From assembly GCF_002938435.1 (NCBI RefSeq), contig NZ_POQT01000003.1:156164-220163 (forward strand): a DNA stretch of 64,000 nucleotides, read 5' to 3'. Both the position numbers and the translations under genes were made by a program. Positions within the stretch are counted from its first letter, which is position 1, and every line of letters begins with the position of its first letter. Positions 22,033 to 22,824 of this stretch are shown here, in pieces. Below the pieces are notes generated by a model, which saw nothing but the letters and a program-made list of their open reading frames with translations, was not told where the DNA came from and made no database searches. The stretch is from Blastococcus saxobsidens. Its GTDB lineage: Bacteria; Actinomycetota; Actinomycetes; Mycobacteriales; Geodermatophilaceae.

Positions 22033-22824
22033 TCAGTACAGCTCCTCCGGGAGACCGATCCCGGTGAAGGCGGTCACGTCCAGCAACCGGGCGACCGGCA
22101 CTCCCGCATTGTCGAGGAAGTCGCAGATCTGCCGGTGGTGGAAGGCCGCATGGAACCGCTGCAGTCGCACCAGTTCCGAGAAGGCGGTGTCGCCGCGGTT
22201 CGAGACGACGAACGGGTCGTCGACCTCGGGGAGCTCGCTGACCTCCAGGAGGAACGCCTGCCAGGTGCGCGAAGCCCGTTCCACGTACGTCCTGACCTGC
22301 TCCGTGGTGTGCAGGTAAGCCTCGACCTGGAGATCGGCTTCGCCGGTGTACCAGGCGAAGAAGTGCTCCCGGTAGGCCGCGGGCAGCAGGTCGATGGGCC
22401 GGCAGACGTTGACGGTCAGGTTGCGGGAGTCGCGTCCCCGGGACAGCGTCGGCTCGAGCAGCTGATCCCACTCGTAGTGCCCGACGAGGCGCACCCAGTC
22501 GTCCAGGACGGCCGCGATGTCCCAGGCCATCGGCAACCATGGCTCGGCGGCCGACCCGCTCTCGTCAGGCATCCCGAGGATGCCGCGCAGTTGAACCGGA
22601 TGGATGATCGGCACGGGATCGCCGTCGACGAGGACCGACGGGATGATCGGCTTGCCGACCGCCTCGTGGCGTTGCTGGCCGGCACCGCCGTCGATCGCGT
22701 TGAGCAGCACGAGATCCGTGCCCTGGCTGCCGAGGAACTCCTCGACCGCGGGGCTCTGCAGGAACTGCTTCGCCGCCGCGCAGTGGGCCTAGCCGGGCCT
22801 CCAGAACAGCACCAGTTCGCGCAT
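22033..22824 (-). CDS. Glutaredoxin-like + DinB-like protein with in-frame TAG at the active-site Cys (candidate UAG-selenoprotein)
   Basis: From ATG 22824-22822 the frame reads MRELVLFWRPG, then TAG (22791-22789, codon 12), then AHCAAAKQFL and on without a further stop to TGA 22035-22033. Residues 1-90 form a glutaredoxin/thioredoxin half: strand ELVLFW, the motif [TAG]-A-H-C in place of CxxC, a helix, strand DLVLLNAIDG, and the cis-Pro segment IIPSVLVDGD. Residues about 120-255 look like DinB/YfiT (RLQRFHAAFHHRQICDFLD, with metal-binding His). TAG thus replaces exactly the catalytic Cys, as selenocysteine would. If decoded, 263 residues. A conventional reading would begin at GTG 22710 and lose the active site. 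GAGGGAG lies upstream of the ATG. Confidence 0.75.

Follow-up and report, generated by a model that had tools for sequence, protein, structure and literature searches.

A glutaredoxin-DinB gene of Blastococcus saxobsidens with UAG at the catalytic cysteine codon probably encodes a selenoprotein

An earlier report of UAG-directed selenocysteine (Sec) in Geodermatophilaceae is said to be that of Mukai et al. (2016). The accessible part of PMC5330540 credits an earlier report for UAG-Sec in this family and describes three of its genomes with a tRNA-Sec of anticodon CUA, in which TAG occurs in formate dehydrogenase (FDH), UGSC-motif, and AhpC selenoproteins. The first-pass annotation of the DNA studied here had stated that UAG-directed Sec was already reported in these bacteria, and that text, as far as it was accessible, agrees; so the decoding itself is already known. 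For selenoproteins in general, a 2026 catalogue (PMC13188914, accessible in part) states 119 families and subfamilies. DinB and mycothiol are absent from its main text, and no fusion of glutaredoxin (Grx) and DinB was noticed in its table. In addition, the literature on selenoprotein and DinB, selenocysteine and mycothiol, Geodermatophilaceae selenocysteine, and glutaredoxin fusions named no Grx-DinB selenoprotein in the titles and abstract openings of the matches listed; a prior mention elsewhere is possible.

Here, a Grx-DinB gene was analyzed in a 64,000-nucleotide stretch of the B. saxobsidens genome (the window). The frame runs on the minus strand from ATG at 22824 to TGA at 22035-22033, with 264 codons and a sole internal stop, TAG at 22791-22789, which is codon 12. 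Around it the N-terminus reads MRELVLFWRPG-TAG-AHCAAAKQFL. Re-reading of the frame gave the same result as the first-pass annotation, a single TAG interrupting 22824-22033 where a glutaredoxin CxxC has its first Cys. GC3 was 0.91 in the 11 codons 5' of the TAG and also 0.91 on its 3' side. A search of the whole genome (4.52 Mb, 86 contigs) found the gene once, with one TAG within. The features of the locus are as follows.

22033..22824, minus strand: glutaredoxin-DinB gene with internal UAG, predicted from the frame, the single TAG, and the relatives; the product would have 263 residues with Sec at the UAG
22789..22791, minus strand: TAG, predicted Sec codon, residue 12 (U of UxxC); Cys or TGA at the equivalent site in relatives
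22780..22782, minus strand: TGC (Cys15), the Cys of the UxxC pair; Cys in 34/34 site-spanning rows of alignment A3
22747..22780, minus strand: putative SECIS-like stem-loop spanning +12 to +45 (counted from the U of UAG), with G27-U28 near the tip
22567..22824, minus strand: thioredoxin/glutaredoxin-fold domain, residues 1-86; near-cut-off Pfam match and fold match
22075..22551, minus strand: DinB/YfiT-like four-helix bundle, residues 92-250; predicted fold
22138..22152, minus strand: HxxxH motif, His225 and His229; each conserved in all 50 rows of A3
22033..22710, minus strand: truncated ORF, 225 aa, reported by standard-code gene calling; starts at internal GTG 22710

We consider it very probable (about 0.9), judging from the sequence, that the product of this gene is a selenoprotein, with the tRNA-Sec(CUA) of the same genome inserting Sec at the UAG. 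TAG also serves as an ordinary stop: it terminates 9 of 47 ORFs in the window, the ORFs being picked heuristically, and the coordinates 14645, 45759, and 63529, pointed out earlier as TAG ends of other genes, are all TAG stops. Since ordinary genes also end in TAG, UAG decoding is taken to be context dependent.

Of the 37 relatives returned by the first protein search, 36 begin after the codon-12 site, as expected if a stop stands there; the remaining one, P0026, is complete and has Cys. This illustrates how such proteins escape standard gene calling. Among the metagenome relatives (P0002-P0012, 67-74% and 86% identical), the one with 86% identity starts at the same residue as the truncated 225-aa protein. 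A profile search added 27 full-length proteins with Cys at the site, mostly in the motif WRPGCASC. When the two protein searches were combined (n = 68), the site is covered by 29 proteins, 28 of them full length and one a fragment (P0067), and each of the 29 has Cys; the other 39 start downstream of the site. Sites with a stop are invisible in a protein database, and thus these 29 proteins exclude other residues and are silent on the frequency of Sec. Alignment A3, in which 44 of the 68 database proteins make up most of the 50 rows, has 34 rows that span the site, with six stop-bearing rows read as Cys by construction.

At the DNA level, a single-sequence scan of public genome contigs found no locus, and an alignment scan found six, of which five span the site and the sixth is a C-terminal fragment. 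The five site-spanning loci (L012-L016, all from Actinomycetota metagenome-assembled genomes) carry TGA at the same codon without exception, as FW(R/H/Q)P(S/A)-TGA-ASC. It had been argued at the outset that a stop falling on the redox residue is not random, and that homologs should be aligned at codon 12; with Cys in every site-spanning protein and TGA in every relative with DNA, the position of the TAG is indeed, on this comparison, more than chance. The genomes of L014 and L015 have a tRNA-Sec(UCA) according to ARAGORN, so codon and anticodon agree where both were seen. Those of L012, L013, and L016, whose completeness is not stated, gave no tRNA-Sec among the 10 matches examined, which were Ser, Leu, or Trp tRNAs. 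For SelB, the genomes of L014 and L016 gave matches over the cut-off, that of L015 a partial one, below the cut-off, on the contig with the tRNA-Sec, and those of L012 and L013 none over the cut-off; here too completeness is not stated. L015 and L016 are near-identical genes with the same two upstream ORFs, and nothing else was common to the flanking ORFs of the five loci, which were listed heuristically and compared by eye.

The genome possesses the decoding machinery. As had been proposed for checking, tRNA-Sec(CUA), selA, selB, and selD were sought, and all four are present. The tRNA (G000:C15:13444-13535) scored 65.8 bits against a cut-off of 47 and lies between selD, on the opposite strand beside it, and selA, with selA and selB downstream (locus L009). 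All three proteins exceeded the cut-offs of their NCBIfam models (SelA, 415.1 versus 267.9 bits; SelB, 285.2 versus 242.25 bits; SelD, 387.6 versus 125 bits), and the nearest named SelB proteins are from Blastococcus, at 89-90% identity, which points to a Blastococcus-like host. Further TAG-Sec candidates were found in a search restricted to chosen families, so that the three genes besides Grx-DinB are no full count. Two FDH alpha genes read ENQARI-TAG-HS(A/S)TVPGL (L021:1921, G000:C3; L022:1918, G000:C25), at a position that we take to be the Sec site of FDH-N. The third is an AhpC/TSA-like gene (43.3 bits; L205:1534; G000:C18, about 52488) in which TAG takes the place of the active Cys, in LRGDW-TAG-PYCC; it recalls the AhpC case of B. 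saxobsidens told in the accessible part of PMC5330540. No match to the UGSC-motif selenoprotein was obtained in this genome, but the same search gave none in control genomes either, so that this negative is uninformative.

Another proposed check, a SECIS element after the TAG, had a mixed outcome. A candidate hairpin of 34 nt has G-U at +27/+28 near the tip of a longer interrupted stem, with -18.9 kcal/mol and z -3.00, for a stretch picked after folding. The whole 54-nt fold after the UAG has a z of only -0.76. The UGA relatives have a common 7-bp hairpin with an AGUU loop and G-U at +27/+28. Hairpins of 7 bp also follow the UAG codons of the two FDH genes (strong, with the loop GGUCU and G-U at +23/+24) and of the AhpC-like gene (G-U at +25/+26). 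In a strict GU-loop test, these other 8 sites (3 UAG, 5 UGA) reached -8.5 to -13.6 kcal/mol, within the best 0.2-1.2% of 25,572 background places, whereas the window site failed at -0.3 kcal/mol, equalled or beaten by 16% of them. The hairpin is therefore suggestive only; from folding, it would be a non-canonical structure and a candidate SECIS only.

The best-surviving alternative is that the TAG is a recent nonsense mutation or a sequencing error in a Cys-type gene, leaving a useless truncated frame. The weakness of the SECIS-like hairpin would suit it, and so would the distribution: the gene was found in 1 of 112 genomes of the family, namely this one, and is so not fixed in the lineage, being absent from the other 111 by this search. 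Four observations speak against it. The truncated 225-aa protein is recorded identically on two database contigs, known there as a protein sequence, and the longest of these has 4,533,155 bases, so that it lies outside the 86-contig assembly searched. The metagenome relative described above starts at the same residue; five relatives have TGA at the very codon; and the genome carries a tRNA-Sec that matches UAG. On these sequence comparisons the nonsense reading is disfavoured, and we regard it as improbable.

Both parts of the proposed fusion were seen in the predicted fold, in line with the first-pass annotation, which had called the gene a glutaredoxin fused to a DinB-like domain. With the TAG read as a residue, Pfam Glutaredoxin (PF00462) scored 22.4 bits against a cut-off of 22.9 over residues 5-28; the same model was above the cut-off in 5/5 UGA relatives and in P0026. 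With the stop read as Cys, the U/CxxC opens helix 1 of a predicted thioredoxin fold. The model of the Uxx-star glutaredoxin-like selenoprotein (NF041212) stayed below its cut-off (13.7 versus 66 bits). The C-terminal half is predicted to form a four-helix bundle like those of DinB and mycothiol isomerase, with the HxxxH in its last long helix, and from the DinB fold His225 and His229 are likely metal ligands. No Pfam DinB model scored over its cut-off: only L013 showed DinB_2, at 15.6 versus 24.8 bits, and none appeared in the window protein or 9 others scanned. The standard-code ORF 22033-22710 gave no Pfam match.

That ORF is nevertheless what standard gene calling gives, and a DinB-domain protein made from the internal GTG at 22710, with the Grx part upstream left untranslated, is a second alternative. 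It is even less credible than a nonsense mutation. The sequence ahead of the GTG agrees with the N-termini of relatives (WRPG, CxxC, AAK), open full-length Cys forms exist, and translation from residue 39 would leave out the first strand and helices of the thioredoxin fold. As for UAG being read by pyrrolysine, as is known elsewhere, or by a general amber suppressor, this has next to nothing in its favor: ARAGORN calls the tRNA tRNA-Pyl because its anticodon is CTA, but the tRNA fits the tRNA-Sec model and sits between selD and selA, the residue replaced is a catalytic Cys, which suits the chemistry of Sec, and pyrrolysine decoding was rejected because no PylS scored over the cut-off in the genome (best, 21.7 versus 178.15 bits).

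For the selenoprotein reading, the following course can be proposed. SelD and SelA would make Sec-tRNA, and SelB would deliver it at the codon-12 UAG, perhaps aided by the downstream hairpin, while the remaining UAG codons would still terminate. Sec12 and Cys15 would form the UxxC redox pair of the glutaredoxin domain. Going by the predicted fold, this domain may act in cis with the DinB/maleylpyruvate-isomerase-like domain, where His225 and His229 would hold a metal; the substrate is probably mycothiol or its mixed disulfides.

Beyond the family Geodermatophilaceae the gene was also rare. In a phylum sample it was found in 1 of 396 genomes, again this one. In the sample around G508, 61 of 396 genomes gave a match, only G508 along the whole family model; the other 60 matches lie within the first 116 model positions and look like ordinary glutaredoxins. 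The plasmids searched gave no match to the Grx-DinB family. A tRNA-Sec was found in 108 of 112 genomes of the family, and the 110 tRNA-Sec genes comprise 102 with CUA and 8 with UCA. The UCA form occurs in genera g5, g6, and g7 (G066, G068-G070, G072-G074) and as an extra copy in G058, and the other sampled genera have CUA, which maps the codon switch within the family. G058 has two tRNA-Sec genes, UCA at 81.8 bits (L049, G058:C17) and CUA at 65.3 bits (L120, G058:C11); dual decoding, an acquired element, or contamination are possible explanations. The tRNA-Sec(CUA) genes seen here (e.g., L001:1501-1592) are labelled tRNA-Pyl by ARAGORN, and automatic annotation may therefore miss this variant of the code.

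In the tree, the window gene is placed with truncated metagenome relatives (98/98 with P0002). The Cys forms make one group with support 100/100, where the program warns of long branches meeting, and the TGA forms are found on the same side as the Cys forms in this arbitrarily rooted tree. This arrangement is compatible with transfer of the gene between hosts using UGA and hosts using UAG, or with its retention while the codon changed. Less firmly than for the gene itself, we think it likely that the locus represents an uncatalogued Actinomycetota selenoprotein family, joining a Sec-glutaredoxin to a DinB/mycothiol-transferase-like domain. Its codon 12 would take three forms: UGA for Sec in several lineages, a Cys codon in one group, and UAG for Sec in a Blastococcus with a switched Sec codon. 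Such a family would preserve a record of a reassigned Sec codon, and the protein would be an enzyme that combines selenium and thiol in a single chain and works with mycothiol. Because the relatives have UGA, UAG, or Cys at one and the same position, the route and the cost of reassigning the Sec codon become directly testable. The gene is also a candidate for a fourth UAG-Sec family, after the three named in the accessible part of PMC5330540, and its pairing of Sec-Grx with a DinB domain is not in the 119-entry catalogue PMC13188914, as far as the accessible part of the catalogue goes.

Compared with known systems, the locus resembles the Geodermatophilaceae UAG-Sec system in its tRNA-Sec(CUA), in TAG at the Sec site, and in the FDH and AhpC-like TAG genes of the same genome. 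It differs in that the Grx-DinB fusion is outside the three families named in the accessible text of PMC5330540 and in that its hairpin is less canonical. Like the Sec-containing glutaredoxin (PF00462, UxxC) of Table 1 in PMC13188914, the protein would have a thioredoxin-fold domain with a U/CxxC active site; unlike that entry, as given in the accessible part of the catalogue, it has a C-terminal DinB-like bundle, and its codon is UAG here and UGA in relatives. Finally, among the structures listed, the predicted four-helix bundle with HxxxH in the last long helix is shared with mycothiol-dependent maleylpyruvate isomerase and the DinB/YfiT superfamily (2nsf/2nsg, 6iz2, 1rxq), but identity to these is about 10%, no Pfam DinB match is over the cut-off, the likely metal ligands recognized are two His, and the bundle is placed behind a Grx domain.
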